Part shown: positions 3,657 to 50,400 of the stretch, in pieces
Layout of the letters: each line of letters opens with the position of its first letter
How positions within the stretch are numbered: the first letter of the stretch is position 1
From: an uncultured Eudoraea sp.
GTDB taxonomy: Bacteria > Bacteroidota > Bacteroidia > Flavobacteriales > Flavobacteriaceae
Direction of reading: 5' to 3'
Assembly (NCBI RefSeq): GCF_947490415.1
Contig: NZ_CANLGX010000004.1
Location: 1-64,000, forward strand
DNA length: 64,000 nucleotides
Notes under the pieces: model-generated
Told to the model about the DNA's origin: nothing
Databases searched by the model: none
What the model saw: the letters and a program-made list of their open reading frames with translations, nothing else
Made by a program: the position numbers and the translations under genes

Positions 3657-3666
3657 AGCCATAACT

Positions 3667-29174: not shown

Positions 29175-30737
29175 CTAGCGGCTTGTTGGTATCATTTCAT
29201 TCACCTGTTTTTCGATAGTGCTCAGACTCCAATCCCCTGGCACCTGGCTAGGAGGAAACTCTTTGAAGGTATTTAGGAAATTCAGAGCGTAATACTGCAT
29301 ACCCCCCAACATATAAACACGATCTACATACCAGTCCCAATATGTATTAGAGCCTTCCAGAGCTTTCTCAAACGGGTCACGTCTTAAGTTAAACAGGTAC
29401 GGGCCCCTGAGTTCTACAAAAGGCTCAAACCATAGTGCAAGTTTGTTTTCACGCTGAACGCGGAACATCGCTTTCCAATCTCCATAGCGAAGTGCGGTGA
29501 TTTCTCCTGCATCACTTACATAAATAAAGCCCTTGCGTGCAGATTCCTCAGATTTCCCCATCAGATAGTCCAACTGGTTCACTCCATCAATATAATTCTT
29601 GTACTGTCTTCCATTAAGTGTGACCCCTTTTTTGAGTTGATCAGCAATGTCATCGGCACCCGCAACAGCTGCAAATGTAGGTAGCCAATCTTCATGAGAA
29701 AAGATCCCGTTCAGGGTTTTCCCGGCAGGAAATTTCCCGGGCCATTTGATGAAGGCAGGTGACCGGAATGCCCCCTCCCAACTAGTATTCTTTTCCCCGT
29801 GGAATGGAGTTGTACCGGCGTCTGGCCAGGTATTGAAGTGAGGTCCGTTATCAGTGGAATAAAAAACGATGGTATTGTCTGCAATACCAAGCTCATCCAG
29901 ATAATCCAAAAGCTGGCCCACATGCATATCATGTTCGATCATCCCGTCCGTGTATTCATCATTACCGGAGTGGCGACGTTCTTCCTTTACATGAGTACGG
30001 AAGTGCATACGGGTTCCGTTCCACCAGGTGAAGAAGGGTTTCCCGGCATCAACTTGTTCCTTGATAAACCGCTTGGCCACAGTTACTGTTTCGTCATCAA
30101 TGGATTCCATGCGTTTCTTGGTAAGAGGTCCGGTATCCTCAATCCGCTGTCCACCTTTACCGTCAGCCCAACTATGGATAACACCCCTGGGCCCGAAAAC
30201 CTCTTCGAATTTCTTTCCATTGGCCAGCACCAAATCATGGGGATAGTCTTCATTTTCTGGTTCTTCCTCCGCATTCAAATGGTACAAGTTTCCAAGGAAT
30301 TCATCAAACCCATGCATCGTTGGCAAATGTTCATCCCGGTCTCCCTGGTGGTTTTTACCAAACTGTCCGGTGGCATAGCCCAGGCTTTTCATCACTGTGG
30401 CTATAGTTACATCCGTTTTTTGCCAGCCTTGTGGAGCATTGGGCATCCCTACTTTTGTCATACCCGTACGAACTGGCACATTGCCTCCCAAGAATGCCGC
30501 ACGACCGGCGGTACAGCTCTGCTGGGAATAATAATCGGTAAAGGCAATACCTTCTTTTGCAACCCGGTCGATATTTGGAGTCTTAAACCCCATCATCCCA
30601 TGGTTGTTATGACTTATATTCCAATATCCGATATCATCACCCCAAATGACAAGGATATTGGGTTTTTCGTTTTTTTGCGCAAAGACTGCCACGCAAAATA
30701 GCAATAGAATTGTCGTTGCTAAATATCCTTTTCTCAT
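29175..30737 (-). CDS. Arylsulfatase (formylglycine-type sulfatase)
   Basis: This 520-residue protein has a signal peptide (residues 1-20, ending AVFAQ). The catalytic signature SCTAGRAAF has Cys75, which should be converted to formylglycine by a maturase. Metal ligands come from WGDDIGYW (about 32-39) and YSTDNGPH. The length and motif order match type I arylsulfatases. It removes sulfate esters, probably from algal or other marine polysaccharides or small aryl sulfates, outside the cytoplasm. It has no SusC/D or glycosidase neighbour, so it is not in an obvious polysaccharide locus. Confidence 0.93.
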   Translation of the reverse strand: MRKGYLATTILLLFCVAVFAQKNEKPNILVIWGDDIGYWNISHNNHGMMGFKTPNIDRVAKEGIAFTDYYSQQSCTAGRAAFLGGNVPVRTGMTKVGMPNAPQGWQKTDVTIATVMKSLGYATGQFGKNHQGDRDEHLPTMHGFDEFLGNLYHLNAEEEPENEDYPHDLVLANGKKFEEVFGPRGVIHSWADGKGGQRIEDTGPLTKKRMESIDDETVTVAKRFIKEQVDAGKPFFTWWNGTRMHFRTHVKEERRHSGNDEYTDGMIEHDMHVGQLLDYLDELGIADNTIVFYSTDNGPHFNTWPDAGTTPFHGEKNTSWEGAFRSPAFIKWPGKFPAGKTLNGIFSHEDWLPTFAAVAGADDIADQLKKGVTLNGRQYKNYIDGVNQLDYLMGKSEESARKGFIYVSDAGEITALRYGDWKAMFRVQRENKLALWFEPFVELRGPYLFNLRRDPFEKALEGSNTYWDWYVDRVYMLGGMQYYALNFLNTFKEFPPSQVPGDWSLSTIEKQVNEMIPTSR

Positions 30738-31776: not shown

Positions 31777-34700
31777 TTATTTTATCGGAATTGGATGAAG
31801 AACTTCCCCCTGGTAAACAGGTTCACATTTGTCCCCCACGACAGAATTTATAAAGTTAATAACAGATCCAAGCAGCGTTTTGGCGATTTTTAAATTGCCG
31901 GATTTTACACTACCCATTTTACCATAAATGCGCTGCTCCATTAGGCTGCAGCCCTTTTTATCAAGAACATAGGCGGTAAAGCCGGGGATGGAATCATTTA
32001 TAAAATCAAATTCACCCTCAAATGCAAGCCGGTTGGATGATGTACTAAATGCAGCATCCTCTGTTTTTAAAACCCCATGATCAACACTCCAACGGGTAAT
32101 TACCTTAGAAACATATGTCTTGTCCTCCGGTTTCAGATCAGCAGTGGCAATAAGACTAGTAAAATTTGCTCCTTTTGTTACAGCAATACCAATAGGTCCT
32201 GCTAGTACAATGGCGCTGACATCTGCCAGGTTAAACTTTTGAGTGCGTTGGTATTTTCGCAGGAGATTATCAATATCAATACCATAAAGAATTAAAGAAT
32301 CGCCCGTCATATTCACGGTACCCCTCAGATTTGTGCTCACTTCTTCCCAATTGGTGCCACTTCCTGTGAATTGTAAAGAAGCATTCAATGTTCCTTCCAT
32401 AAGCTTCCTGTCAGTATAATCTTCAAGGACAGATTCGATGGAGATATCTACCAGATCATACGTGAATTCAAAATCTGGAGGAGTCTTCGCAATGTCTAAA
32501 AATAAGGATCCTTTATCCTGATTACCCGATTCTCTTAAACTTGAAAAGTCCAAATTAAATTGGTCATTTGCCGCATTAAAATCAATGTCAATAGGAATTT
32601 TAGGAATACTTGATGTATTAATGGCATCAGCATGCAGTTTCCCTGTTAAGGCTTCAATGCCCACAATCCTGTAGGAACCGGGAAAATGTTTAAAGCGAAG
32701 ACTATCTAATTTCAAACTGAGATTATTAACCTCATAAGATGTCGAATCAGCTAACCTTAAAATAATATTGCTATTAGTAATGGCCGTTTTTCGCAAGGCA
32801 AAAGGAACTGTTTCTAGTACTCCTGATACATTTAAATTGCCATTCACTATAGTCAATTTATCCGCACTAATATTTTTTGCATTTAACAAATCGCCGTCAT
32901 TCATTTCTCTGATCAGATCTGATACGTATTCCTCAGGGATATTATTTAGTTTCAGCTCCGCATTTACATCCAATGTACGGAAATCATCAGGGATCACAAC
33001 ATTCCCCAATATATCGGCAGATCCAATTGGAAGTTCCGCATGAAGTCCAGGGATAGCTACGTTAAATCCAGTTTGGGTCTCACTAAACTTAATAAGGCCT
33101 TCCAGTTTTGATAGCCCCGGGAGTTTATCCAGCTCAAAGGACATATGTTGGAGCTCTATATTGAGTGAGGGAAAATATGAATCATAAGCATCATTATCGC
33201 TGCCGGTTACTTTTACTTTCGTCTCGAAATAACGTATACGGTCATTTATCAAGGCAGTGGAATTTGGATTTAAAATGAAATGGGAAGTGTATAATTGAGA
33301 CGACTTTACTTCAAGATCTGCCTCAAGTTCCTGCTCTTTATTAAAAAGAAAATGATACAGGTTCTTAATCCTGCCATTGATCGTCATATTGCTGCTATCA
33401 TATTCCATACTTAGGTTGTTCAGGCTTACCTCATTTCGGCTTTCACTAATAGTACCCTTGAACTTACTGATTGTTTTTTCAGAGGGGTTGTATTTGAACC
33501 CTATATCTTTCATTTGCAAAGACCAGCTTCCAATACTGTCCATCTGGAGCTTATTATCAAGATTTAACAAGCCATCAAAGTCTGAAGTGAAATTGATCTT
33601 ACCTTTAAGGGAGTCGATACTTGAAAATTGAAAAATATCGTCATAACCATCCAAATCCAGTGCTATATTTACGTTACTTTTTAAATATGGGTGCTGGAAA
33701 TTCTTCACAAAGAAATTTCCGGAAACAGAACCTCCGGGAGTCTCACCTCTTAAATTGCGTAAAGAGAGAATTGCAGTTGAAAAATCAGCGGCTTCACCGG
33801 TATGTAATTCCCCGTCAAAACCGACATTATTAAAATTCCCCTTTCCGGCCGGGCCTTTCATACTAAGATCCTTTACACCAAAATTCAAATCAATTTTTGG
33901 GAAATTATCTTCCATTTTGCCCTTTATCTGACCGTTTAAAACAATATCGGCATTTTGAATCGATGACATATTCTGTTCCAGTATATCTTCCTGGATTAAT
34001 TTCGAAAGGAAAGCCATATCGTTAGATGAAGCATCAAATTGCATATCAATGTAGTTGCCATTCTTGTGGTTATAAGTCCCTTTAATGTCTACTGAAACAT
34101 TTTCAAAGTTCAAAGCTCCTTTATGAATGACAATTTGTTGAGAAGCATCGATATAATCCAAATTGAGTGAAAGTGATGCCGGTCTTTGCTCTGCAATAGA
34201 AGGTAATTTTGCGCTTTTGGTTATTTCAAATGAAGTTTCAATATCGCAGGATATTCCCTGGGTATTTAATAAGATCGTACCATCGAGGGAAGCCAGTTGT
34301 ACCTCGGAAGAATGTTTTTCACCGGGGTTATTATACTTCAAAGTTATATTGTCAAGATCAATTGCTTTTAGATCAATCACAAGTAGTTTCTTCCCGGCTT
34401 CTGGTTTCTTTTGATTTTCGGAAGTTTTGCTTTTTTTTGGTTTCGACACCTTGAGGGCAGTCGAATCTAAATTAATATTTGCTATAGGGAGGTTCTGCGG
34501 CTTGGAAAATGCTTTTTCCAGATTAGTTTTATTGTCCTCGTACATAAACAGATCCAAGACCCCCTCTTCTATACTTATGGTTGTAACCTTTAAGTTTTTA
34601 TTTCTGATTAGTTCCCAGGGAGCGAAATCGAGATAGATATTCTCAGCATACAATATGGGCGACTGGTCTTTTTCTCTAAGGGAATCTTTTTTCTCATAGA

Positions 34701-34941
34701 AATTTATATGCCTGAGCCTTACACTAATATTTGGAAAGTGCTGAAAAAGGACCATTTCAATATCTTCAATTTCCAAGTCTCCATATTCAATTTCTGCAAT
34801 ATAATCCTGAATCTGCGACACCATAAAACCTTTGACATCCTTGTAGAACAGGAATCCCAAAAAAATGCATAAGACTATTAGTATGCCCAACGCAATCAAT
34901 ATTCTTTTGACTATTTTAATCAAAAATGATTTTGTAAACAT
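31777..34941 (-). CDS. AsmA family protein
   Basis: This 1054-residue protein has a single N-terminal membrane anchor (residues about 12-33) and then a long beta-rich periplasmic body. It starts with the AsmA pattern GDLEIEDIEMVLFQHFPNISVRL and has AsmA-like C-terminal repeats ending in KIAKTLLGSVINFINSVVG. AsmA-like proteins form hydrophobic grooves that carry lipids between inner and outer membranes. The size is larger than E. coli AsmA (about 617 residues) and closer to YhdP/TamB-type bridges. Residues about 160-195 are Lys/Ser-rich and probably an insertion. Confidence 0.87.
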   Translation of the reverse strand: MFTKSFLIKIVKRILIALGILIVLCIFLGFLFYKDVKGFMVSQIQDYIAEIEYGDLEIEDIEMVLFQHFPNISVRLRHINFYEKKDSLREKDQSPILYAENIYLDFAPWELIRNKNLKVTTISIEEGVLDLFMYEDNKTNLEKAFSKPQNLPIANINLDSTALKVSKPKKSKTSENQKKPEAGKKLLVIDLKAIDLDNITLKYNNPGEKHSSEVQLASLDGTILLNTQGISCDIETSFEITKSAKLPSIAEQRPASLSLNLDYIDASQQIVIHKGALNFENVSVDIKGTYNHKNGNYIDMQFDASSNDMAFLSKLIQEDILEQNMSSIQNADIVLNGQIKGKMEDNFPKIDLNFGVKDLSMKGPAGKGNFNNVGFDGELHTGEAADFSTAILSLRNLRGETPGGSVSGNFFVKNFQHPYLKSNVNIALDLDGYDDIFQFSSIDSLKGKINFTSDFDGLLNLDNKLQMDSIGSWSLQMKDIGFKYNPSEKTISKFKGTISESRNEVSLNNLSMEYDSSNMTINGRIKNLYHFLFNKEQELEADLEVKSSQLYTSHFILNPNSTALINDRIRYFETKVKVTGSDNDAYDSYFPSLNIELQHMSFELDKLPGLSKLEGLIKFSETQTGFNVAIPGLHAELPIGSADILGNVVIPDDFRTLDVNAELKLNNIPEEYVSDLIREMNDGDLLNAKNISADKLTIVNGNLNVSGVLETVPFALRKTAITNSNIILRLADSTSYEVNNLSLKLDSLRFKHFPGSYRIVGIEALTGKLHADAINTSSIPKIPIDIDFNAANDQFNLDFSSLRESGNQDKGSLFLDIAKTPPDFEFTYDLVDISIESVLEDYTDRKLMEGTLNASLQFTGSGTNWEEVSTNLRGTVNMTGDSLILYGIDIDNLLRKYQRTQKFNLADVSAIVLAGPIGIAVTKGANFTSLIATADLKPEDKTYVSKVITRWSVDHGVLKTEDAAFSTSSNRLAFEGEFDFINDSIPGFTAYVLDKKGCSLMEQRIYGKMGSVKSGNLKIAKTLLGSVINFINSVVGDKCEPVYQGEVLHPIPIK

Positions 34942-35035: not shown

Positions 35036-35995
35036 CTACTTCTTCTTCAATTTCCCCGGCGACTTATCCAACCACGAGTACACATACGAAACACCAAATA
35101 CATCAAAATCACTGCCTTGCTGAAATCGGATTCCTGAAGCCGCGGTAAATTTTAAAGTATGACTGGGGTTTATAGGCAATGAATAGGTTATACCAAGCCT
35201 AAGTTGAGAAATAGTGGCATCTCTTCTTATATCATTTATAAAAGATTCAGCACCATAACCGTAACCAAAGGAGAGGGCAAGCCACATCCCTTTTTTCTTA
35301 AAGGACCTTATAATATTTCCCTTGGCGACCCATAGCGCAGATTGAGACAAGGTATTATCGCCCAGAAACTCTTTGTTATCTGAAAATAGCCAGGCACCTA
35401 CATAGGCCTCCAAAACCCAATTATCCAAATTATGAGAAAGGCCATAAACTGCCCTAAGACTCCATCGGTTGGAACCTAAGTTTGGAAGTTGTTCCTTTTT
35501 ATAATTACCGGTTGGAATTACCAGCTGAAGCGCCAATCCTGTAATGGTTTTTTGCTTATACTCTGAAAAATCTTTAGCGTTAATAGAGGGGGCGCCGGTG
35601 AGATTAACCGAGGCCCTTATCCTTAAATCTCCAAATCCCGTATACGAATCTTCAAAAGAAGTGTTTTGAAAAATACCTGTAAAATCTCCTCCTGCAAAGG
35701 GTAGTATAACATCTACCTTTCCTGATTTACCAAAAAAATCAATAGCTCTTACATAGGCCAAAATTAAGGTATTGATTTGCCCATCAAAGTCTTCCAAAGG
35801 CAAAGAGGGGTCCAGAAGGGTGTTTCCCGAGGCATAAGCATAGGCTAATCCAACAAAATTAAGCTCTTTAGGTAAATTAGTAAGGGCTCGTGGTTCAAGC
35901 TCCTGAGAATATCCACAATTAAATATTACAGGGGAAAGAACTAAAATAATTAGAAGGATTTTAAAGCGCACTTTCCCTATTAGTTGATCGGTCAA
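35036..35995 (-). CDS. Transporter-like outer-membrane protein (MetA-pathway/phenol-degradation type)
   Basis: This 319-residue protein starts with TTG at 35995 or GTG at 35971; both precede the same signal sequence (FKILLIILVLSPVIF). No in-frame ATG exists near. The body resembles the putative MetA-pathway transporter family, an outer-membrane barrel with FAGGDFTGIFQNTSF and YGLSHNLDNWVLEAYVGAWLF segments, closing with a Tyr/Trp-rich strand. The substrate is unknown. It lies between AsmA and a small secreted protein, and there is a strong minus-strand terminator upstream of it. Confidence 0.65.
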   Translation of the reverse strand: MTDQLIGKVRFKILLIILVLSPVIFNCGYSQELEPRALTNLPKELNFVGLAYAYASGNTLLDPSLPLEDFDGQINTLILAYVRAIDFFGKSGKVDVILPFAGGDFTGIFQNTSFEDSYTGFGDLRIRASVNLTGAPSINAKDFSEYKQKTITGLALQLVIPTGNYKKEQLPNLGSNRWSLRAVYGLSHNLDNWVLEAYVGAWLFSDNKEFLGDNTLSQSALWVAKGNIIRSFKKKGMWLALSFGYGYGAESFINDIRRDATISQLRLGITYSLPINPSHTLKFTAASGIRFQQGSDFDVFGVSYVYSWLDKSPGKLKKK

Positions 35996-36243: not shown

Positions 36244-36825
36244 TTATTCAACTTTCGTCAAAGAAACGGCTATGGCCTCTGCATAAGTCAATATCACAAC
36301 TTGTCCAATATGCAGCTTTTCCATAAATGCCGCATCCGTCATCGGTATAGTTAAATAATTTCCATTAGGGCCCTCTACCGTAGCCATCATCTGCGGTCTG
36401 TTAAGTATTTCAATAGTTACAATAGCTTTAACCATTTCTCCTACTGCCGCTGCGGGAGCTTCACCTGCAGGAGCCTTGTCTTCCCCTTCTAAAACAACAA
36501 ATGGTTCTGCCAATTCTGTAGCAGTTGGGGTTCGAAACTCAGCTTTTAAATACGTATAATAGTCAAAAGTAATTACATCACCAACTGTGATTTCATCAAA
36601 CCTTTTAACCTCCGGGCCGGCTGTAACAGTAACCAGTTCTCCATTAGCCCCTTTTAGGGTTACATCGCGGGTTTCTTTAACAATATCCGTGACTGTTCCC
36701 TGCATACTTACAAGACTTAATCTTTCTCTTGGTTCTATGGTACTATCAAGATCCTGCGCTAATAAAGGATACGTTAAAAATGTACAAAAGAATAAAGCAA
36801 TGGCATAAAATTTAAATGTTTTCAT
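36244..36825 (-). CDS. Secreted protein with two similar small domains
   Basis: This 193-residue protein has a signal peptide ending LLAQ (residues 1-23). Two halves look alike: residues 43-100 (GTVTDIVKETRDVTLKGANG and TVGDVITFDYY) and residues 125-190 (VKAIVTIEILNRPQMMATVEGPNG and IGQVVILTYAE). Each resembles a short OB- or SH3-like barrel. An Ala/Pro-rich linker (EDKAPAGEAPAAAVGEM) joins them. The function is unknown. It ends at a strong terminator. Confidence 0.7.
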   Translation of the reverse strand: MKTFKFYAIALFFCTFLTYPLLAQDLDSTIEPRERLSLVSMQGTVTDIVKETRDVTLKGANGELVTVTAGPEVKRFDEITVGDVITFDYYTYLKAEFRTPTATELAEPFVVLEGEDKAPAGEAPAAAVGEMVKAIVTIEILNRPQMMATVEGPNGNYLTIPMTDAAFMEKLHIGQVVILTYAEAIAVSLTKVE

Positions 36826-37027: not shown

Positions 37028-38191
37028 CTAGGCGATTTCGTGGGACTTATGAGCCTCGGCCAGGGCCAGTTCACAATAGGCATTTATTTTCTGTACTAAT
37101 TCTAAAGTTTCTTCAGAATTAGGATATCCATGAGGGATTTTTTTGGCGATCGCAGAGGCCATCTCTTTGTAAACCTTCACTACCTCCATTATAGAACCGG
37201 CACTTAGAATCAGTTTTGCAGCAAGTCCTTTTCTGATTTTTACATTTTCAGTAAAAACCTTCTGATTATTATATACTTCGGCAAGTGTAGCTATAGCCAT
37301 AACCTGAGGTATTGCACAGAATCTGAATACACGTTCGTTTCTTAATATTTTTAAGTAAGCAAGGCAGTCCGTGGCATGAGAAAGCGCATCATTTACCATA
37401 TGATTAAGACCGGAGACAGATTCTAATTTTCCCGGATGTAATGAAAAACCTTCAACTTTTGGACTATATAAGGTCCATACTTCTTCAGGCCAAAAGATTC
37501 TGTTTTCGTCCAGGTCTTCTTTATAGTCCCTTACAATATTCGTTTTCTGCAAAAAGAGGCCCATGGAGTTAGCGAGCATTTTCTGCGATTCCAATTCCTT
37601 GCTCTCTATTTCGGAAGCTGCAAAAAGTTCAGATAACCCTATTCCAACCAATCCCGCAACATAATGGCAGTAAAGATTGTAGTCTTCCAAAGTGGTTATC
37701 TCAGTCTCTGCAAAATCTGCCATTCCTGCACCCATTTTTTGGCAGATATCTGTTATAATGTTTTGGTATTTTACGTCCAGTACTAAAAATGCCTCTATTA
37801 CCTTATCATAATTGGCGAGCAGATCTCGATATTCTTCTTTGTCGCCTACATTGTCAAGTTTCCACCCCTGCTCGACATTTTTTGTATAAAACTCCCGAAG
37901 CAGATTAATTTTAGTATCCTGAGCCAAATCCATATCATCTTCTATAGAGTCAAGCGCTCTTAAGATCAGATAGAAAAGGCAAACAACGTCCCTTACCTCA
38001 TCCGGTAATTGGCGAATAACCGCGGCAAATGATCTTGATACCTTATCTAGTGTATTATAGCAATAGGCAAGGTTGCTATCCTTTATTATCTTACCATTTT
38101 TATGTTGACCAATAATTTTCTTACGCCCAAATTTGAGCTTTAAAAGCGCAGCCATCTCCTCCGGTTTTAAAATAGATTTCTTTATTGACAT
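37028..38191 (-). CDS. Squalene synthase, eukaryote-like
   Basis: This 387-residue protein is a trans-prenyltransferase with Asp-rich motifs LDSIEDD (Asp81 to Asp86) and VRDYKED (Asp222 to Asp226). Several blocks match animal farnesyl-diphosphate farnesyltransferase as I remember it: YCHYVAGLVGIGLS, ANSMGLFLQKTNI and FCAIPQVMAIATLA. It should join two farnesyl diphosphates to give squalene with NADPH. It lacks the C-terminal membrane anchor of eukaryotic enzymes. It lies 36 bp after the LolA-like gene, with an RND exporter further upstream. No cyclase or epoxidase gene is in the window, so the end product is unknown. It may instead make dehydrosqualene. Confidence 0.88.
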   Translation of the reverse strand: MSIKKSILKPEEMAALLKLKFGRKKIIGQHKNGKIIKDSNLAYCYNTLDKVSRSFAAVIRQLPDEVRDVVCLFYLILRALDSIEDDMDLAQDTKINLLREFYTKNVEQGWKLDNVGDKEEYRDLLANYDKVIEAFLVLDVKYQNIITDICQKMGAGMADFAETEITTLEDYNLYCHYVAGLVGIGLSELFAASEIESKELESQKMLANSMGLFLQKTNIVRDYKEDLDENRIFWPEEVWTLYSPKVEGFSLHPGKLESVSGLNHMVNDALSHATDCLAYLKILRNERVFRFCAIPQVMAIATLAEVYNNQKVFTENVKIRKGLAAKLILSAGSIMEVVKVYKEMASAIAKKIPHGYPNSEETLELVQKINAYCELALAEAHKSHEIA

Positions 38192-38227
38192 GATAAGTTG
38201 TTTTGCTTGGCCTAAGCCTATTTCTAT

Positions 38228-38989
38228 TTAGTTGATAACTGGTTCAATACTAAAATTTTCTTCTTTTAAATCGGGCCTGGCTTTAATTTTCAAAACTTTT
38301 ATTTCATTGTGCTTAGCTTTTTTAAGGTCCTTATTCACCATAAACATGGGTTGGATTTTTCCTTTGAGCTGCCCAATTGCCTGAAAATCGGAATAGGTTG
38401 TAATACTTTTTTCCGTTCCGTCTTTGTCATAGGCTATAATTTTTAAAATACGATACGTATTTTCTTCAATTAAATATTCGGTTTCACCATTTTCCAAGTC
38501 TAAAACATCATTTACCTGCAATTTATAACAGGATTTTCCCTCAAACTCTTCATTCCCTTTAAAATCGAAACTCAATTGATTCCGATCCTTCGAGGTGTAA
38601 TTGGAAATAGACACTCCAGAATTAACTAAATCCATATTTTTGGAAGTAGCCTTCATCTTTCTGATTTTTCCATTTGCCGGAGTAAATATTTCTATCAATC
38701 CTGGTTCATCGGGATAACTCGTTATAACAATGGTAATCCCTTTTAACTTATCAGGATGTTGAATTACAGTTTTAGTCTTTTCTACCTCTCCTAATTTCCC
38801 AATAAGCACATTGTATTGTTTGTCTTTTGACTTCCCATTACTGGTTATCTCCTTTATCTCCAGTGATAGTTCCAAATTTTCAGTTAAAAGCTGATCTGCC
38901 GCTTTTCCAAAAATTTCGGCAGCATTATTCTGACCCATAACGGGCGAATAAAATGCTAAGAAACATACTATTAATTTAAGCTTTAACAT
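38228..38989 (-). CDS. Outer-membrane lipoprotein-sorting (LolA-like) protein
   Basis: This protein has 253 residues from the ATG at 38989; a TTG at 39007 would add six. A signal peptide (MLKLKLIVCFLAFYSPVMGQ) precedes an unclosed beta-barrel LolA/LolB-type fold with IEIFTPANGKIRKM and DFKGNEEFEGKSCYKLQV. Such proteins carry hydrophobic molecules through the periplasm, and in Bacteroidota they often lie beside MMPL-type RND transporters. It sits between the RND exporter and squalene synthase, so it may carry a terpenoid or other lipid to the outer membrane. Confidence 0.78.
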   Translation of the reverse strand: MLKLKLIVCFLAFYSPVMGQNNAAEIFGKAADQLLTENLELSLEIKEITSNGKSKDKQYNVLIGKLGEVEKTKTVIQHPDKLKGITIVITSYPDEPGLIEIFTPANGKIRKMKATSKNMDLVNSGVSISNYTSKDRNQLSFDFKGNEEFEGKSCYKLQVNDVLDLENGETEYLIEENTYRILKIIAYDKDGTEKSITTYSDFQAIGQLKGKIQPMFMVNKDLKKAKHNEIKVLKIKARPDLKEENFSIEPVIN

Positions 38990-39227
38990 AGAGCGCAATA
39001 TTACCAATTTTTTAAATAAAACTGGTACTCATCCCATTATTATATAGAAAAGTAGTGTATCCCATTCTCTGCATATAGTTATTATAAACGTATTAATTAT
39101 TCAATAAAGATACTCTCAATCAAAAAAACAGTCAATACCTCAAAAGAGGCATGATAGGCGGTGTAAGGCAAATTTGGTAAAAAGGGCATTCTTTACAGAT
39201 TATGATACCTTTTAATAAATACAATTA

Positions 39228-41468
39228 CTATTCCAAAAACCGGGGTTTTGTTAAAATTACTATGGCTGGAACCAAAAAAAGTGAACTAATCAGGCAAGTT
39301 GTTATAGAGATAACTATCAAGGCACCAAAAAACTTTAAAGGGGTGAAATTGGATAAAATAAGTGGCATAAAGCCAACTATAACAGAAAGTGCATTAATGA
39401 TTATTCCTCTGCCCGATGTGTTAAGTGTTATGCGCACTGCGTTCTTATGATCATGCCCTTTAGATCGTTCTGTTTTAAAGCGCCATAAAAAGTGAATAGT
39501 ATAGTCCACTCCTACCCCAATCATAATTGAAGATAATAAGGCTGTGGCTATGTCTAAGGCTATTCCAAATATCCCCATTAATCCAAACAGCACAACAATG
39601 GCAATGGTAATCGGCAAAGTGGAGAGCAATCCGGCCCTGGGGGAATGAAACACCAAACTCAAAATGATAAAAACCACGGCCAGGGCAAATATCAACGATT
39701 TAATCTGACCCCAAACGACCATATCGGCCAGTTCAATTTCTGTAAGCCCGGCTCCGGCAGCAAATTGAACATTAGGATCATCCTTTGTAAGTGCATTAAG
39801 TTTTTGCAGTACCCTTTTATTGGCACTATTGCTGCCATCTTTAAGACTTATCAGGATTCTCGCATTTTCGTAATTGTAGTCCAGGTATTGAGAAATATCA
39901 TCTTCATTCCCTCCCAGCGAAAAGACTTCAATTAGCTGGTATATCTCATCTGATGTTGCCGGAATTTCATCATAACCCTCTTCTGTGGGTTCATAAAATC
40001 CTTTGCTTAGTTCTTTTACCAGTGACACCGGAGAACTAACCAGACCCACCGCAGGGTCTTTTATAATTTCTTTTTCGTACATCTCCATACGTTTCATCAC
40101 CTCCGTGGAGAGCACATCGCCTGAAAAAAGTAAAGAGATAAACTGTGAGCCCCCAAATTTTTCATTTATCAATTTTGTAGAACGACCTACTTCGGACTTA
40201 GCAGAAAAATAACTTTCAACATTGGTATCAACTTTTAATAAAAATACCCCGATTACCCCAATCACTGCCACGATCACGGAAATTGTAATAATCTTTTTTG
40301 GATGTAAGGTTACCCAATTACCCATATTACTTAGCCATCTATCCAAGATGGGTGCCTTTTTCTGTTCCGTACCTGTATCCCTGCGCTTTGGTTTAAAAAA
40401 TGAGAGCATTGCCGGCAGAAACCAAAGACTCAATAGTAACGCAAACCCGATTCCAATAGCAGTTAGCACCCCTAATTCGGCCGCCGGCATCATGGTGTGA
40501 CTTAGCAAACCCAGTATTCCCCCTATGGTAGTTATACCGGTTATAAATATGGGCTTTTTAAGGTCGATGTAAATTTGCTTACAAATTTGTTTCATGGTAA
40601 GTGATTCCTCACCTCTCGCCAATTCCTGATAATGTGCTATCAGGTGAATCCCATAATCGTTGGCAATTGCGATGATCATGATGGGCATTAAAATGCTGAA
40701 AAGCGAAATCTTCCATCCTAAGAAAGCCATCAAACCAAAAGAGAGAATAATGCTCATAAGAACGATCAGAAAGGGCATAAACACCCCTTTCCACTCGCGA
40801 AATGAAAAGTATAACATAAAGACCATGAGAAACATGGCAATGGGAAGTAGTACAACCAAATCATTCAGTATATTTCCCTCAATAGAATAGCGGATAAAAG
40901 GTAAACCTCCTAAAAGGACTTCTTCCGTTCCCGGATGATCGGTTACAATTCCCTTTATTTCATCTATAATTATATCGGGAGTTTTGGTGTTTTTTATGAG
41001 CACCAAAGATACAAGGCTAAAATCTTCAGAAAAAAACCGGTTAGTCATACTATTGGCAGCAATTCTTTTCTTTAACAACTCAAAATCGGCTTGATTGTCC
41101 GGAATTTCTTCAAAGAAAGGTGTCATTGACATTAATCCGTCGTCAATAGAAATTTCCTGCGCAGTAAATGGAGAAATAATACGATCTAAACCTTCCAGTT
41201 CACTCAAATTGGTTGCAAGTGATTCAAGTCTTTTTAAGGTAGCTGCATTAACAACATCCTCAGAATGGAGCATTAACAAGATCATCTCACTTCCCCCAAA
41301 AATACTATCCAGCTCTTTTAAGTAAACCTTGTTTTTTATGGTATCGGGTACATAATCATCCACATTGGAATTTACCTGAAGCCGTGGAATTAAAAACAAG
41401 GAAAGCAGAGTGATAACCATTGCGGTTATTACAATAAGAGAGCGATACTTAATAATTTTATCTTGCAT
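39228..41468 (-). CDS. RND superfamily transporter, MMPL/HpnN type
   Basis: This 746-residue protein has two MMPL/sterol-sensing-like membrane blocks, each of about five or six spans, at residues about 190-370 and 570-740, plus an N-terminal helix and two periplasmic loops. The TM4 motif ANDYGIHLIAHY and its counterpart GVDYTIHFLWRF carry the conserved Asp of the RND proton relay. It pumps lipids or hydrophobic compounds, as HpnN does for hopanoids. It heads a co-directional run with the LolA-like protein and squalene synthase, which favours a terpenoid-lipid role. Confidence 0.85.
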   Translation of the reverse strand: MQDKIIKYRSLIVITAMVITLLSLFLIPRLQVNSNVDDYVPDTIKNKVYLKELDSIFGGSEMILLMLHSEDVVNAATLKRLESLATNLSELEGLDRIISPFTAQEISIDDGLMSMTPFFEEIPDNQADFELLKKRIAANSMTNRFFSEDFSLVSLVLIKNTKTPDIIIDEIKGIVTDHPGTEEVLLGGLPFIRYSIEGNILNDLVVLLPIAMFLMVFMLYFSFREWKGVFMPFLIVLMSIILSFGLMAFLGWKISLFSILMPIMIIAIANDYGIHLIAHYQELARGEESLTMKQICKQIYIDLKKPIFITGITTIGGILGLLSHTMMPAAELGVLTAIGIGFALLLSLWFLPAMLSFFKPKRRDTGTEQKKAPILDRWLSNMGNWVTLHPKKIITISVIVAVIGVIGVFLLKVDTNVESYFSAKSEVGRSTKLINEKFGGSQFISLLFSGDVLSTEVMKRMEMYEKEIIKDPAVGLVSSPVSLVKELSKGFYEPTEEGYDEIPATSDEIYQLIEVFSLGGNEDDISQYLDYNYENARILISLKDGSNSANKRVLQKLNALTKDDPNVQFAAGAGLTEIELADMVVWGQIKSLIFALAVVFIILSLVFHSPRAGLLSTLPITIAIVVLFGLMGIFGIALDIATALLSSIMIGVGVDYTIHFLWRFKTERSKGHDHKNAVRITLNTSGRGIIINALSVIVGFMPLILSNFTPLKFFGALIVISITTCLISSLFLVPAIVILTKPRFLE

Positions 41469-41972: not shown

Positions 41973-42046
41973 GGTCGCGTAGCTCAGCTGGATAGAGCAT
42001 CTGCCTTCTAAGCAGACGGTCACAGGTTCGAATCCTGTCGCGATCA
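41973..42046 (+). tRNA. tRNA-Arg (anticodon TCT)
   Basis: The acceptor stem GGTCGCG / CGCGATC closes with one G-U pair. The D-arm is AGCTCAGCTGGATAGAGC. The anticodon stem TCTGC / GCAGA encloses the loop CTTCTAA, giving anticodon TCT. The T-arm ACAGGTTCGAATCCTGT is perfect. The discriminator base is A and no CCA is encoded. It reads AGA codons. Confidence 0.97.
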
Positions 42047-42058
42047 CTTAAAGCGTAA

Positions 42059-42630: not shown

Positions 42631-45600
42631 TTAACTGGAAACAATTACTTTAAACTGGGAAGTGGATTCTCCATCCCTGATTTTTATAAAATAAACTCCA
42701 TTGCTTAGGAAAGACAGGTCCAGAGGGTTTTTACCCTTAAATTGTTTCACCAATTGTCCTGCAATAGTATAAACTTCAATCAAACTTTTATCTGAAATCC
42801 CCGGTAGATTTAGATATTTAGATGTTGGGTTGGGATATGCTATTATTTTGTCCGTAAAAGATATTAATTCCAAATATTCACCTTCACAGGGCAGACTGGA
42901 TTTCAAACTTACGAGATCGCCATTATTCAAAGGGATACTAAATTGTTTATTTTCAAATGTCCCTTTTACCTCATTATTCACGGTCAACACAAAAGGCGGG
43001 GTACCGGTATCAATGTCGAAATAGGTTTTAGAGGATAATCCCTGAAATTCTGTCTTTGCCGTAACATCTAATGGTTGTACTTCCGGGATGTTTAAGTTAT
43101 AACACTGTTCAATTGTAGGCTCATTTTCAACTCTTAAACACATAGTATACATCCCAGGTGCTAGATTTTCAATTATAATTTCCCGGTTAAAAAAGTATTC
43201 CTGACCGTTAATCAGAGCGACATAATTGTAATACTCTTCAGCATCAATAGAAATGGCCCCATCATTTAGATCCAGACAACTTTCGCCAATAGTCTTAACA
43301 AGAAAATTATCCGGTTTCAAATTAACCAGGCCCTCAAAATATTCCTGAGCCAAACCAAATGCTTCCTTACCGATTTTCTCGCCAATTTTGCGCCCCGGAA
43401 TGTCATCTATAGGAGGGTGAATGCCTCCCCAAATACGGGATAAACTGGTCTGGTCCGAGGCATCTCTATAAGTAGCCCATTGCAAGGTTAAGTTTTCACT
43501 GGGGCCATTTTCAAAAACTAAAAAATTATTCTGTTCAATATCAAAGATTCCCAGGCCTCCCGGAAAATAGGGATCACCTGTAAGCAGGGTGAGTACCTCT
43601 GCGGCGGCACGCGAAAAAGTGGAATGCCCGGAAAGATAACCTGCAAAAGGTGGTGTTACGAATGTAGGGCGCTGATAAGGCCACCAGCGCGTTCCCAGGA
43701 TCCAGTCAACTCCTGCGATATCTGTGGATGCGTTATTAATGAAATCTGGCCCTTTCCATGCGTATATTTTAATTTTTCCCACGTTAACATCTCCAACTCC
43801 CGCCAGGGGATCACCACTTTCAATCAATTCAATTCTCCCGGGAATAAGGGGCAATCCTTGTGGATGATAACCTGGAAGTGAGGCATTAGTGCTTTGACCA
43901 TTAGAAGCCATATAGCGAATAGCTGAAATTGGCCGGATATAATCATAATAACCTTTAATTCCCCAGGCGTTTACAGCAGCATCGTGCATTGCGCCTCCCA
44001 GTGCTAAATAAGATTTTACATCCCACTCTAAATCACTAACCACTGAACCTTCGCCCCCAAACTGTTTTACTGTTTCCGGATGATCGCTTACATAATTTAA
44101 AATCGTGAACCAATGTCCGGGAGGAGTTTCTGAATCCGGGCCATCTGCCCAAAATTCTGCAAGAACCCTGGCGTAATCGGCTCTTTTAACCAGTTGCGGT
44201 ACATAAGGTGCCTGTGTTGTGGGGTTTAAATCATGCCCCATACCAATATCACCTCCTTCCATAAAGTCATAAAAAGACTGGTATTCCTCAAACGTTTCAG
44301 GGTACAAGGCAATATCCACATTACCCAGAGCTCCTGGTGAAATATCTATTAAAGTGGGGTCGTTAGGGTCCAAATGCGAAGACCAGGACGCTACCAATGC
44401 AAAATGCCATTTGTAAGGATCGGTAAAGCCATCTTCAGAGGAATTACTGATTCCCGGAGGACCTCCCGGATTATTGTAGATATAACTATCAAAACCATTG
44501 TTTAAAATCTCCAAATCTGAAGATTTGAGTGCAAACGGAGTAACTTTCCCCCATTCCGGGCTTAAAAATTCAGGGACAGCCCCTTCAATCAAATTTCCAC
44601 TCTGATCTATAAAACTTTCAAAAGCAAGCGGCTGCCATCGGTTAGGGTTGTTTAATTCATAAACGTCTAAATAATTTTCTAAAGAAAGCGGACTATTAAC
44701 CGGGTTATAGTCTTGATTCTCATAGCTATTTTCTTCATTAGCACCGTCCTGATAGCCAAATTCTATAAGTTTTTCCGCCAGATAATTACCTAATGCTGCA
44801 TAAGACCCGGACGAGTAATCTATGTCTTTAAAGGTGGGATCATAACCTAATTCTGTAAACAATGCGTTAAATTTTTGCAATGCATAAACTGCTCTGGGAG
44901 AATCAGAGAATCTGTGCGAAAGCAGGCGATATAAGGCATAGCTTAATACTTCATGCCTGGCAGCTTCTAGGTCCACGGGGGGTAGTATTCCCTCAAAGCC
45001 ACAGTAAAAGTCGTTAAAGGTCTTTCCAAGGAATACGGTTTCAGCAGTATCGTCAAACAAGGCCCAGGCATCATACATGGCCAGTGAACTATGAAAAAGA
45101 TTACGGGCATGAACTGTAGGCCGAGCCAGATCCAGGCGTATGCCATCTAATAATACCTCATTCCAATGGCGTGCAATGGACCAATCCGGATTAAGAGTTC
45201 CACCTCCATTTCCCCCACCATTTGGGTTTCCGTTGTTTTCAACTGGACTGGACCCTTCCACAAGCGTTATTAATTGGTTAGACGTCACATTTTCAAAACG
45301 ATCTTTTAAGCCGCTTAGCCAGGTAACCTCTACATAATCTACCTCAGTCGCCGCTCCTATGCCAAAAAATTCTGAAAGGCTGTTCTGGCTGATAAAGCCT
45401 TCGCCGCACATGGTATATCTATAATATACCTGTTCTCCTACTCCTATTTCAATATAAGACCCAATACCCATTCGGTTGCTCTGAGTACCCTGAAGTTTTA
45501 TTTTTAGCCAGTTATTTTGTGTCACTGTCTGGTTTACCCATAAGTCTATAGGCTGGTTCTCAATATTCACCACCGCAATATCAGGTAAGCCATCGTTCTG

Positions 45601-46740
45601 TATATCTCCAATGGCATTTCCATGACTGGTTCTGATATTATTCATAAAACCTGTATTGGAAGGTATTGTATAATTACCGATGCCATTGTTTTCATAATAT
45701 GCAGATGGAGGCCGGCCATCAGAACCATCTAGCTGGCTACTCACAAATAAATCAAGGTCACCATCATTCTCACTATCTAAAAAGACAGCGCCCCAACCAT
45801 AGCCATCATAACGAGTACCATTGTTCTGTGCTATATTGCTAAAAGTACCATCTCCATTGTTTAATAAAAATGCATTTCCCAGCACGCTGCCAGATAAAGC
45901 CGGCGGGTAAATGTTGGTAACGTAAATATCCAGCCATCCGTCATTGTTATAATCTTCTACCGTGGTTGACATGGCATCCATAAAGAGATCCATGCCAGAG
46001 GCACTACTTACATCCTGAAAGGTTCCGTTACCTCTGTTTCTGTATAAGATATTAGGCAATTCGTCTTTGTCATTAGCCAGAAAAAGGTCCTGAAACCCAT
46101 CTCGATCATAATCAATGAATGCCGCACTTTGGGTAAGATAACCTTGTGATGCCAGGCCAGCAGATAGCGTAACATCTGTAAACGTGCCATTATTTTCATT
46201 GCGGTAAAGTAGATTATAATTTATCCTTTCTGGATCTCTTACAGAGAGAAATACATCAAGGTCACCATCATTATCATAATCTCCCCAGGAAACTCCCCAG
46301 TATTGGGAGGCTTGAGTGGCGATTCCTGAAGCAGCGAGGATATCCGTGAAATTATTACCCCCATCATTCCTGTAAAACCAACATCTGCCCTGTTCACTGG
46401 TAGCGAAAAAATCATTGTCACCGTCATTATCGAAGTCCACCCATAAAACCTGGCGGGTATATATTCCTTCGCTACTAATGGGTAGTTCAATGATTTCAAA
46501 CTGCCCTCCAGTATTCCGTAGAAATTGAAAATCCCGGTTCGCAGAGGCCGGTATAGTAATATCGTCCCAGCCGTCATTATCAAAATCCATAAAAGAGATA
46601 CCCGGGCCATGAAAAGAAGGTATTGATCCGTAAATCACTTCTTCATTTACCAATTCAGTTAAGTTTTCCTCAAAAAAAACCTGGCTATTACCGAGAAAGC
46701 ACCAAAACTGCAGTAAAAGGGGGATTATTAATTTCCTCAT
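42631..46740 (-). CDS. T9SS-exported FG-GAP/ASPIC and vanadium-haloperoxidase fusion
   Basis: This protein has 1369 residues from the ATG at 46740; a TTG at 46764 is less likely. A signal peptide precedes FG-GAP/VCBS propeller repeats (about 20-390, many DxDNDGxxD motifs) and an ASPIC/UnbV domain (about 400-510). Then a vanadium-haloperoxidase/PAP2 domain (about 520-1180) has KGYYDYIRP, LSGHSTFSRAAA and GGIHPPIDD, the binding and catalytic motifs. A type A T9SS sorting domain ends it (IIAYPNPTSKYLNLPG to the C-terminus). It should be a cell-surface or secreted enzyme. The halide preference cannot be told, and phosphatase activity is possible. Confidence 0.87.
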   Translation of the reverse strand: MRKLIIPLLLQFWCFLGNSQVFFEENLTELVNEEVIYGSIPSFHGPGISFMDFDNDGWDDITIPASANRDFQFLRNTGGQFEIIELPISSEGIYTRQVLWVDFDNDGDNDFFATSEQGRCWFYRNDGGNNFTDILAASGIATQASQYWGVSWGDYDNDGDLDVFLSVRDPERINYNLLYRNENNGTFTDVTLSAGLASQGYLTQSAAFIDYDRDGFQDLFLANDKDELPNILYRNRGNGTFQDVSSASGMDLFMDAMSTTVEDYNNDGWLDIYVTNIYPPALSGSVLGNAFLLNNGDGTFSNIAQNNGTRYDGYGWGAVFLDSENDGDLDLFVSSQLDGSDGRPPSAYYENNGIGNYTIPSNTGFMNNIRTSHGNAIGDIQNDGLPDIAVVNIENQPIDLWVNQTVTQNNWLKIKLQGTQSNRMGIGSYIEIGVGEQVYYRYTMCGEGFISQNSLSEFFGIGAATEVDYVEVTWLSGLKDRFENVTSNQLITLVEGSSPVENNGNPNGGGNGGGTLNPDWSIARHWNEVLLDGIRLDLARPTVHARNLFHSSLAMYDAWALFDDTAETVFLGKTFNDFYCGFEGILPPVDLEAARHEVLSYALYRLLSHRFSDSPRAVYALQKFNALFTELGYDPTFKDIDYSSGSYAALGNYLAEKLIEFGYQDGANEENSYENQDYNPVNSPLSLENYLDVYELNNPNRWQPLAFESFIDQSGNLIEGAVPEFLSPEWGKVTPFALKSSDLEILNNGFDSYIYNNPGGPPGISNSSEDGFTDPYKWHFALVASWSSHLDPNDPTLIDISPGALGNVDIALYPETFEEYQSFYDFMEGGDIGMGHDLNPTTQAPYVPQLVKRADYARVLAEFWADGPDSETPPGHWFTILNYVSDHPETVKQFGGEGSVVSDLEWDVKSYLALGGAMHDAAVNAWGIKGYYDYIRPISAIRYMASNGQSTNASLPGYHPQGLPLIPGRIELIESGDPLAGVGDVNVGKIKIYAWKGPDFINNASTDIAGVDWILGTRWWPYQRPTFVTPPFAGYLSGHSTFSRAAAEVLTLLTGDPYFPGGLGIFDIEQNNFLVFENGPSENLTLQWATYRDASDQTSLSRIWGGIHPPIDDIPGRKIGEKIGKEAFGLAQEYFEGLVNLKPDNFLVKTIGESCLDLNDGAISIDAEEYYNYVALINGQEYFFNREIIIENLAPGMYTMCLRVENEPTIEQCYNLNIPEVQPLDVTAKTEFQGLSSKTYFDIDTGTPPFVLTVNNEVKGTFENKQFSIPLNNGDLVSLKSSLPCEGEYLELISFTDKIIAYPNPTSKYLNLPGISDKSLIEVYTIAGQLVKQFKGKNPLDLSFLSNGVYFIKIRDGESTSQFKVIVSS

Positions 46741-46761
46741 CGAGCTCTTTCCAAATCTATT

Positions 46762-46769
46762 CAAAGATA
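46762..46769 (-). promoter_or_regulatory. Candidate -7 element (TATCTTTG, minus strand)
   Basis: The minus-strand sequence TATCTTTG fits TAnnTTTG, 21 bp upstream of the ATG at 46740. It overlaps the alternative TTG start, which supports the inner ATG as the true start. Confidence 0.4.
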
Positions 46770-47487: not shown

Positions 47488-50400
47488 ATGAAGCACTTTT
47501 ACACAAAAATTATGGTATATAATCAATGGACCCCATTTAGGCAAACCGCTTTGCTTAAAAATACAGGTCTTTTTTTAATGCTATTTTGTATGGTATTGCC
47601 AGTGGCAGGGCAAAAAGGAAATAATAAAAATATTACCCTCTTTACTTGTGCCGAGGAAATTGAAAATGGTCTGTACCGGGCTTATTTTGGATACACAAAC
47701 CCTAATGACGATGCAATAACTGTCCCTGAAGAGGATAGTTATGTTTATCTAAGTAGTAAAATAGATGATGATGAATATCAGGGTATACAAAAGTTCAATG
47801 TAAACAACACCTTTGAGCCTGGTACTGTAGAAAGGGCTTTTTCCGTAGTATTCAATGGCAAAGGGCATGCCAAATGGACCCTGGTCCAGAACAAGAATAC
47901 AGAAACAAAGGTACGAGCTGCTTCAGATTCTCCTGTATGTCAGGATCTTGGAACTATTTTTCCGGTTTTCGGAGGTGTTGGAAAGGTTTTCAAACCTATA
48001 GGATCTGAGTTAACAGCATTGGGCACGGCAACTGCCGGAGATGTACCCTCTAAATTAATATACCAGATCAATACTAGTAAAGAGGTACTTATAGAAATCG
48101 TACCGGCCAATGGTAAAATGCAGGATGTGCTGGATCTACTTCAGCTTGCCGCGCCCTCGGGCTTTGGTAGATCATTGTCACACTTTATCGTAGCTCCGAC
48201 CATTATCGCCCAAAAATATGCTACCATAGATGTATACTTCCCAATTAGTAGATTATTGGAATTGAATGCCTACGGAGACGGTACCATTTCTACGATAATC
48301 AATTTTGCAAGACCTTTATACCTCCCAAATTTAAGTGCGGGTACCGTTACTACCCAGGGTGATGCGGCCATGTTGACAAATGATGTGCGTGAATCTTTTA
48401 GTATCGGCAGGGAACAAGATGGGAGCCGCATACCGTTAGATGGACGTGGAGTAAAAATAGGGGTCATTTCAGATAGTTATGACAAAGTCAATCCAGGCGA
48501 AGCGGCTTTGGATGTCGATCAAAGTGATTTACCCGGGTTAGAAAATGACGAAGGCAATTTAACCCCGGTTGATGTAAAAAAAGACTTGCCGGGCAAGGGT
48601 TCAGACGAGGGTCGAGCGATGCTGCAGATCATACACGACGTCGCCCCTGGCGCCGAACTTGGATTCTACACCGGAGTCTTATCTCCACGAGATTTGGCGC
48701 TGGGTATTGAAACGTACTCCGAAGATGGCTATATGATCATAACCGATGATGTTACCTACCCGTTGGAACCATTTTTTGGGGATGGAGAAATAGCAGAGGC
48801 CATCAATGATTTTACAGCTAAACCCGGCAGGGCCTATGTAACCTCTTCCGGAAATTTTGCCGACAATGCACAGCAAGGTGTTTTTGTAAATTCAGATCCC
48901 TCTGTTGTACCAGATTTTCTCCCCGATGGAACAGTTGCACACCTTTGGGACAACAACGACGATATAGGTAATGAAATTAGTTTAGAGCCAGGTACTTATA
49001 TGTTCGTGCTGCAATGGGATGAACCGCAGGCATCTCAGAACTTTAATAATTCCACACCCACAGACCTGGATATTTATTTGATTACAGATGAAGGTGAACG
49101 AATAGTGGATACCAATCGCAATAACGAATTAGGAGATTCAGTTGAGGCCATGCTATTTCAGGTTACTGCCAAGTCCACTGCCAATATAATGATCACAAGT
49201 GCCAACGGACCGGCTCCGGCTAATTTGGCTTTTCGGTATGTTGTCTTTAGGTCCAATGGTCTGGAGTATTTGGAATATACAACTGGTGCTCCAACCGTAA
49301 CCGGACATGCAATGACAGATGCCGCTGTAACCGTAGGAGCTGTATTCCACGAACTTGCCCAGAACCCATCGCCAGAGGCCTTCTCTTCCTATGCCGGTGT
49401 ACTTTCAAACAATGTGGCATTAAACGTTGATATCTCAGCCCCGGATGGGGTAGATATTAATAATATCACCAATTTTGGAGCCGATACCGATGGTACCGGA
49501 TTTAACAACTTCTTTGGTACCTCAGCAGCCGCACCACATGCTGCTGCAACCATAGCTTTAGTTATATCGGCTCTGCCAACATGGTATCCAAGTGGTTTAC
49601 CCCAAGATTTGATAACTGAATTAGAATTGGTGGTTGAGTCTAATTCCAATGTGCTGGGAGATCAGGTCCTGGCATTATTAAAAAGTGCAGCGGTGCCCTC
49701 GGGTATCCCGGAACAAGCAGGAGTAGGGCTTATAAATGCCGTTGGTTCGCTCCAAAAAATAGCAACACAGACCGCTATTTTAACGAAGGTTGAGGTGCCA
49801 GAAGAAGAAAAGGATAATCTCAGTGTAGTACCTGTACAGGTAACGCTACTCGGAAAGTATCTTCCAGAAGACCCTACGGTATTCCTAGGCGAGGGCGACA
49901 GTCAAATAGAATTGGAAATTATTTCGAACAACGACACAGAAATTGTAGTTATTGTACCTCCATTCATAGGTAACCCAAATGCCTTGGTCAATACCATTAG
50001 CATCACTGAAACTGGTGAAGATGGCGGCAACTCCAATCCTTTGCCCATTATTGAAGATGGTAGAGTTGCTGTGAAAATTTATGCAGATACTGTAGCTGTA
50101 GAATATGGACAGTCTTACCAATTTAACTTTACTGCTGAAGGGCTTCCGGACGGGATTGAATTTGGTGATGAACTCCCCCCAATTAAACTTGAATCCCCTG
50201 CTGATGCTCGCGCTCCCTTTCCGGGGGTAACCAATTATGCCATTACCCCCTCAATTGACACAGCAAATGCCACAGTTGACCAACTGGCAAATTTGGATAG
50301 CTACCTGATAAACTTCGTGAACGGACTCTTAAGCGTCACTAAAAAAGAACTGTTAATCACTCCAGAATCCCAAGAAATTGTATATGGGGATGCGGTGAAC

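Follow-up and report, generated by a model that had tools for sequence, protein, structure and literature searches.

A eukaryote-type squalene synthase gene beside RND transporter and LolA-like carrier genes in Eudoraea: a candidate module for triterpenoid synthesis and trafficking

Described transport systems and the Eudoraea locus

To our knowledge, only two systems, HpnN and BstABC, have been described that move sterols or hopanoids between bacterial membranes. Here we analyse a gene cluster of an uncultured Eudoraea sp. (Flavobacteriaceae; assembly GCF_947490415.1), which lies in a 64,000-nucleotide stretch of DNA (referred to as the window; positions 1 to 64,000 of contig NZ_CANLGX010000004.1, here C4) within a 3.89-Mb genome with a completeness rating of 100%. 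Three co-directional genes on the minus strand encode an MMPL/RND transporter of the HAE3-like type (746 amino acids; 39228..41468), which is the proposed triterpenoid pump, a LolA-like periplasmic carrier of the LolA3 type (38228..39007; 259 amino acids from a TTG start, or 253 from an alternative ATG at 38989), and a eukaryote-type squalene synthase (SQS) of 387 amino acids without C-terminal anchor (37028..38191). A check of the open reading frames (ORFs) agreed with the positions given for all three in the original prediction, which had been made from the DNA letters of the window alone. Since only 36 nucleotides separate the LolA-like gene from the SQS gene and 220 nucleotides the RND gene from the LolA-like gene, a single transcript is plausible and a separate promoter of the LolA-like gene is possible.

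The cluster resembles HpnN in that an MMPL/RND protein is encoded near triterpenoid genes, in one relative (genome G367) even within a hopanoid cluster, but the RND proteins studied here score far below the HpnN cut-off of 751.85 bits and are accompanied by a LolA-like gene. The BstA-BstB-BstC system of Methylococcus capsulatus, as presented in PMC10942540, likewise combines an RND inner-membrane protein with a periplasmic carrier in a sterol producer; it differs in that BstB belongs to the phosphonate-binding family, whereas the carrier encoded here is LolA-like and the RND protein falls far below the BstA cut-off. A carrier of the LolA fold within a lipid gene cluster also recalls the accounts of LolA2/LolB2 (flexirubin operon) and LolA3 (PMC11885536, PMC13103446), but the neighbours in the present case are an RND gene and the gene of a triterpenoid enzyme. 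Eukaryotic squalene synthases (FDFT1/ERG9) are of the same family as the window SQS, which has kept their catalytic residues but has no predicted membrane anchor and belongs to a separate tree group of Flavobacteriaceae sequences. The sterol pathway of Eudoraea adriatica (PMC4919349) stems from the same genus, and a divergent pair of squalene epoxidase (SE) and oxidosqualene cyclase (OSC) genes is present both in the genome analysed here and in a second one (G304); however, the main text of that paper does not contain the words “squalene synthase”, and we saw no bacterial sterol transporter treated in the paper. The SE-OSC pair of E. adriatica is thus known from that source, and the new element is the link to transport, of which no published report connecting RND-LolA to SQS or the sterol pathway was found in the open-access literature searched.

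We consider it reasonably probable that RND-LolA-SQS is a triterpenoid synthesis-and-trafficking module, similar in action to HpnN and BstABC but of a separate lineage. SQS would use NADPH to make squalene from two molecules of farnesyl diphosphate, as its family and kept residues suggest, and the SE and OSC, whose genes are present, would oxidise and cyclise squalene to a protosterol, for example lanosterol or an isomer. At the inner membrane, the RND protein would take up the triterpenoid and pass it to the LolA-like carrier, which in turn would deliver it to the outer membrane; co-occurrence, gene order and fold point to both of these steps. A wider proposition, to which we give somewhat less than even chances, is that RND-LolA constitutes a dedicated export route of the Bacteroidota for polycyclic triterpenoids, which evolved apart from HpnN and BstABC and is used by Eudoraea for sterols and by a different genus for hopanoids, so that LolA3-type carriers would have a first function, namely the carriage of a non-protein lipid. 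If true, this would add a third system, with a LolA-type carrier and the synthase in one cluster, in genomes of the sterol type and of the hopanoid type, and bacterial triterpenoid transport would become testable in a cultivated marine bacterium. Inhibitors of squalene synthase (zaragozic acid) and of the epoxidase (terbinafine) have already been applied to bacterial sterol synthesis, as reported in PMC6606645.

Squalene synthase and downstream pathway

The SQS reached 447.6 bits against TIGR01559 (cut-off 286.75), with scores far below the cut-offs for HpnD (61.6 bits; cut-off 278.6) and HpnC (29.7 bits; cut-off 250.45), which confirms the predicted eukaryote-like type and its distinction from the HpnC/D pattern. 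Its best match among solved structures was the squalene synthase 3vj8 (E = 1.8e-92), a chain that we take to be human, the listing giving the molecule name only. The two sequences are 46.4% identical over 332 residues, and the peptide blocks that had been quoted as common with FDFT1 are present in their alignment. Identity to 7wgh, presumably a fungal squalene synthase, amounts to 39.1%, compared with 46.2% between 3vj8 and 7wgh. Both Asp-rich motifs and the catalytic positions Tyr73, Arg77, Tyr171 and Phe288 (human numbering) are kept in all six bacterial sequences aligned (the window copy, E. adriatica, G104, G276, G102 and G367). In the same six, the residue opposite human K117 is E or V, and the one opposite Q233 is E or K. 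No transmembrane segment was predicted by hydropathy in the five SQS tested, including the window copy, so that the claimed presence of both motifs and absence of a membrane anchor were borne out as well. The source genome contains two SQS_PSY genes, the window SQS and one that adjoins a gene resembling, by eye, a carotenoid desaturase and is taken as CrtB.

No cyclase had been noted in the window, and the final product had been left open. The ORFs of the window fit this observation, and the single SQHop_cyclase_C match of the genome falls outside it; a search of the whole genome answered the product question in the direction of a short sterol pathway by revealing a divergent SE-OSC pair about 240 kb from the SQS cluster. 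The SE (463 amino acids; locus L011, 9981-11372, minus strand) scored 247.4 bits against PF08491 (cut-off 20.1; match at C4:278121-278894), a family that also matches in 2 of 14 control genomes, and its best and, at E ≤ 1e-20, sole PDB match is the squalene monooxygenase 6c6n (2.8e-83). The OSC (653 amino acids; L011, 11669-13630, plus strand; SQHop_cyclase_C 184.7 bits, match at C4:280625-281599) is closest among PDB entries to the lanosterol synthase 1w6k (7.9e-119) and exceeds the cut-off of TIGR01787 (528.7 versus 322.7 bits), but not those of hopene cyclase (272 versus 431.1 bits) and the osq_cycl model TIGR03463 (558.1 versus 851 bits). The pair is retained in both other Eudoraea genomes examined, G304 (SE 87%, OSC 89% identity) and G104 (75% and 74%). 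All three Eudoraea OSCs contain the motif VSDCTAE, with D455, C456 and V453 (1w6k positions) kept; valine at position 453 is the lanosterol-type residue according to a rule given in PMC4919349. That paper lists an SE (G504DRAFT_2315) and an OSC (G504DRAFT_2316) for E. adriatica and groups the latter as a lanosterol synthase. Because the SE-OSC pair is encoded in the same genome, a short sterol pathway is the most likely fate of the squalene, and the end product of this pathway, judged from the enzymes encoded, is likely a C30 protosterol.

Transporter, carrier and their distribution

The original prediction had described an MMPL/HpnN-type exporter co-directional with a LolA-like carrier. The family assignments and the orientation hold, as the RND protein scored 141.4 bits against PF03176 (MMPL; cut-off 20.5) and the carrier 60.5 bits against PF17131 (cut-off 30), but the HpnN type does not: the RND protein reached only 131.8 of 751.85 bits for TIGR03480 and 76.6 of 1100 bits for NF052374. 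It also remained below the cut-offs of BstA (NF045600; 67.9 of 1400 bits) and of HAE3 (TIGR00921; 286.2 bits over residues 7-739, cut-off 351.9), and three relatives scanned in the same way were similar, the four RND proteins giving 127-144 bits for HpnN and 64-71 bits for BstA. By sequence, the best PDB matches were MmpL3 chains (1.5e-15), with HpnN at 1e-7. The structural model, of moderate quality (predicted local distance difference test, pLDDT, 76.3), has the RND fold, with AdeB, Patched and NCR1, the yeast NPC1 relative, tied at Z 43-44; HpnN and MmpL3 were not among the best 50 structural matches listed. The model of the LolA-like protein (pLDDT 81.4) had its three best matches in the DUF1329 protein 4z48 (Z 21.6), 3bk5 and the Porphyromonas gingivalis LolA3 9tp6, the latter two also at Z 21-22 (for 9tp6, Z 21.3 and a root-mean-square deviation of 3.3 over 223 residues), and matched classical LolA chains at Z of about 10-13. 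Long branches meet in the LolA tree. Binding of P. gingivalis LolA3 to LolB is described as very weak (PMC13103446), deletion of lolA3 in F. johnsoniae as being without phenotype (PMC11885536), and for LolA2/LolB2 of the flexirubin operon of the same organism the carriage of pigment or lipoprotein has been suggested (PMC11885536).

Twelve distinct SQS loci were mapped (the window, L002-L006, L007, which is the same place as L056, L008, L055, L057, L058 and L059). The predicted gene order recurs in other genomes: RND, LolA-like and SQS genes are contiguous and co-directional in 9 of the 12 (the window, L002, L004-L008, L055 and L058), with the RND gene split into two ORFs in L002 and the L008 locus truncated by contig ends. 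L003 begins too near the SQS gene to judge the presence of RND-LolA, and L057 (G276) has an SQS without the pair. In L059 (G367) RND-LolA and SQS are non-adjacent but lie within 12 kb, in the order RND, LolA, sulfotransferase, HpnA, HpnH, SHC, HpnG-like protein and SQS, plus a short ORF. HpnA (480.7 bits, cut-off 367.65), HpnH (531.7, cut-off 225.05), SHC (801.6, cut-off 431.1) and the SQS (436.4 bits) of this locus all exceeded their cut-offs, and the HpnG-like protein did not (162.6 bits, cut-off 187.1). Counted from the first start codon, the RND and LolA-like genes overlap by 14 nucleotides in L058 and L059, although the start in L059 is a TTG and the overlap there is uncertain. As G367, which has no SE at E ≤ 0.001, carries RND-LolA in a hopanoid cluster, the pump-carrier pair appears to accompany polycyclic triterpenoids rather than only sterols, hopanoids being represented by this one genome.

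The distribution of the genes was assessed in 397 Flavobacteriaceae genomes and in a phylum-wide draw of 395. TIGR01559 was found above cut-off in six of the former (G000, G104, G304, G276, G102 and G367) and in one of the latter, the source genome itself. Seven named records were found with the window SQS, six of Eudoraea and one of a “Flavobacteriaceae bacterium”. At the threshold of E ≤ 1e-30 used for the family count, weaker matches not being listed, SE occurred in 3 of the 397 genomes, all of them Eudoraea and all SQS-positive. SQHop_cyclase_C matched at E ≤ 1e-6 in eight, each above the 26.1-bit cut-off, with 181-194 bits in the three Eudoraea genomes, 417 bits in G367 and weak scores of 31-72 bits in G037, G150, G323 and G102. 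RND matches at E ≤ 1e-90 were obtained from five SQS-positive genomes at 68-100% identity and from G359 and G261 at 29%. A close RND orthologue (at least 68% identity) was thus found in 5 of 6 SQS-positive and 0 of 391 SQS-negative genomes (Fisher's exact test, 7.5e-11), or, counted by genus, in 3 of 4 versus 0 of 233 (1.8e-6), both values ignoring kinship. The earlier suggestion that the cluster may make a terpenoid lipid and move it to the outer membrane gains from the SQS type, from the occurrence of the RND gene together with SQS and from SE and OSC in the genome; its last part, export to the outer membrane, is a step that we infer.

Some weaker relatives were seen outside this set. G407 and G412 of the phylum draw encode a 350-amino-acid SQS-like protein with a sub-cut-off TIGR01559 score of 149 bits (L061, 9719-10771, and L060, 9489-10541, respectively), which is distant in the tree from the eukaryotic-type clade; the gene in L060 is followed by that of an FAD-dependent protein (PF21688). 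These two loci were left out of the SQS locus count. The metagenome-assembled genome FCS_Bacteroidota_05 contains two different SQS loci (L002 and L006) and may therefore mix two Eudoraea species.

Competing explanations and origin of the synthase

Several observations weigh against a triterpenoid trafficking module or against its use for sterols. Among the nine contiguous loci, only L058 (G102) is from another genus and the remaining eight are Eudoraea-type, so these loci are not independent, and scoring in the RND scan was limited to the two top candidates per genome. G276 is SQS-positive without a close RND, its congener G059 having neither gene, and lacks a cyclase match at E ≤ 1e-6; it has an SE match of only 22 bits, which lies above the 20.1-bit cut-off but covers 51 of 276 positions and was not counted. 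G102 has SQS-RND-LolA, no SE at E ≤ 0.001 and a cyclase match of only 31 bits, which passes the 26.1-bit cut-off; a 665-amino-acid protein of this genome, whose sole Pfam match is SQHop_cyclase_C (34.3 bits over 181 residues of the C-terminal half, cut-off 26.1), was in our judgement not counted as a triterpene cyclase. In all three Eudoraea genomes the SE-OSC pair is unlinked to the SQS-RND-LolA cluster, and the genus is absent from the lipid table of PMC4919349. The OSC departs from 1w6k at W230, H232, T381 and Y503, which makes lanosterol itself uncertain as a product. Finally, the modelled RND fold would not separate a drug pump from a sterol transporter, nor would the LolA fold alone separate lipid from lipoprotein cargo.

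Two other accounts of the cluster have to be considered. RND-LolA might move a different cargo, such as a phospholipid, a carotenoid, a lipoprotein or another hydrophobic metabolite, its link to SQS reflecting shared regulation or joint transfer. Distant RND-LolA pairs (28-29% identity) in L069 and L070 of G359 and G261, both without SQS above cut-off, indicate that this type of pair is general, and the flexirubin operon carriers as well as the lack of a known role for LolA3 (PMC11885536) fit the same account. However, a close RND orthologue was never seen without SQS in the 397 genomes, that of G367 lies within a hopanoid cluster, and even the distant pairs sit between a Steroid_dh gene (PF02544) and a START-domain gene, a context which hints that RND-LolA pairs serve lipids more widely and may represent another steroid- or lipid-linked use. 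We regard a different cargo as rather unlikely. It is more doubtful still that the module exports squalene as such or an uncyclised derivative of it, with sterols and hopanoids as uses that arose later in some genomes. The gene contents of G102 and G276 and the unlinked SE-OSC pair of Eudoraea would agree with such an export, but cyclase matches above 180 bits (OSC or SHC) were found in 4 of the 6 SQS-positive genomes, as opposed to three matches of 37-72 bits (cut-off 26.1), and none higher, among the 391 others.

The history of the synthase bears on the question of a eukaryotic origin of bacterial sterol genes. A tree was calculated from ten Flavobacteriaceae SQS, the two eukaryotic sequences 3vj8 and 7wgh, haloarchaeal relatives and the sequences of G407 and G412, leaving out L006 and the partial L008. 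The original prediction had offered transfer from a eukaryote or an old bacterial lineage of this type and had proposed phylogeny as a check, whose outcome was divided: the ten Flavobacteriaceae sequences group together (support 89/92, or 99/98 without the far outgroups) beside, and not inside, the two eukaryotic ones, far from the haloarchaeal and G407/G412 sequences, and approximately unbiased (AU) tests reject neither a grouping with 3vj8 (p = 0.214) nor one with 7wgh (p = 0.163). A recent acquisition from a eukaryote would be compatible with these tests, with the identity of the SQS to 3vj8, which is comparable to that between 3vj8 and 7wgh, and with the patchy spread of the gene in the family and the phylum draw. 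We nevertheless consider it unlikely, and the data do not support it as a main claim, the tree containing two eukaryotic sequences only. The separate tree group and the identities of just 58-63% between the window SQS and those of three other genera suggest that SQS is old in the family or was derived from an unsampled bacterial lineage. A search of plasmids yielded 20 records with SQS relatives, all below 60% identity and the 15 listed at 22-30%, and a search of viral contigs yielded no relative.

Identity of the window SQS to those of G104, G102, G276 and G367 is 58-63%, and that of the RND protein to G104, G102 and G367 is 68-72%, whereas aconitase of G104 is 91% identical to that of the source genome and aconitase of G102, G276 and G367 76-80%. 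The module of G104 thus appears as distant from the window copy as those of other genera, which rapid divergence, an exchange among lineages or a replacement could each explain; the sequences do not tell which.

Further genes of the pathway and the window

Downstream of SQS lies a gene for a 193-amino-acid protein without assigned function (36244..36825, minus strand), with a signal-like N-terminus by eye and no match in the Pfam scan. This possible member of the module follows SQS in Eudoraea-type loci only, being kept 3' of SQS in L002-L007 and L055 (67-97% identity, not counting the copy in the window) and not seen at L057, L058 and L059. An AsmA gene (31777-34941) and an outer-membrane protein gene (35036-35995) were discarded as parts of the module, as neither follows SQS in L007 or L055, although both do so in L005. 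A tRNA-Arg(tct) gene (41973..42047, plus strand; ARAGORN) forms a convergent boundary upstream of the RND gene.

Near the SE-OSC pair, a short-chain dehydrogenase gene follows OSC in the source genome and in G104, but not in G304. A sulfotransferase gene beside SE (L011, 8429-9169) was rejected as encoding a sterol-sulfating enzyme, as it was not found in the corresponding stretches of G304 and G104, and the one P450 found (L078) was not accepted as a CYP51: at E ≤ 1e-15 it had four NCBIfam matches, all to other P450 families and all below cut-off, in a scan that used no CYP51 model. The window also contains a sulfatase gene downstream of the SQS cluster (29175-30737, minus strand), and in L059 a sulfotransferase gene (3393-4601; PF13469) stands beside RND-LolA. 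A sulfated triterpenoid is conceivable from these two genes and the sulfotransferase gene beside SE.

Elsewhere in the window, a minus-strand gene (42631-46764) encodes a fusion of FG-GAP and UnbV_ASPIC domains to a C-terminal part, which has a sorting tail and scored 26.9 bits, just below the cut-off of 27, against the helical domain of vanadium chloroperoxidase (PF22778). On the plus strand, a 1675-amino-acid subtilase (47488-52515; PF00082, Por_Secre_tail) carries the heptapeptide KSRAVVN five times in its middle part.

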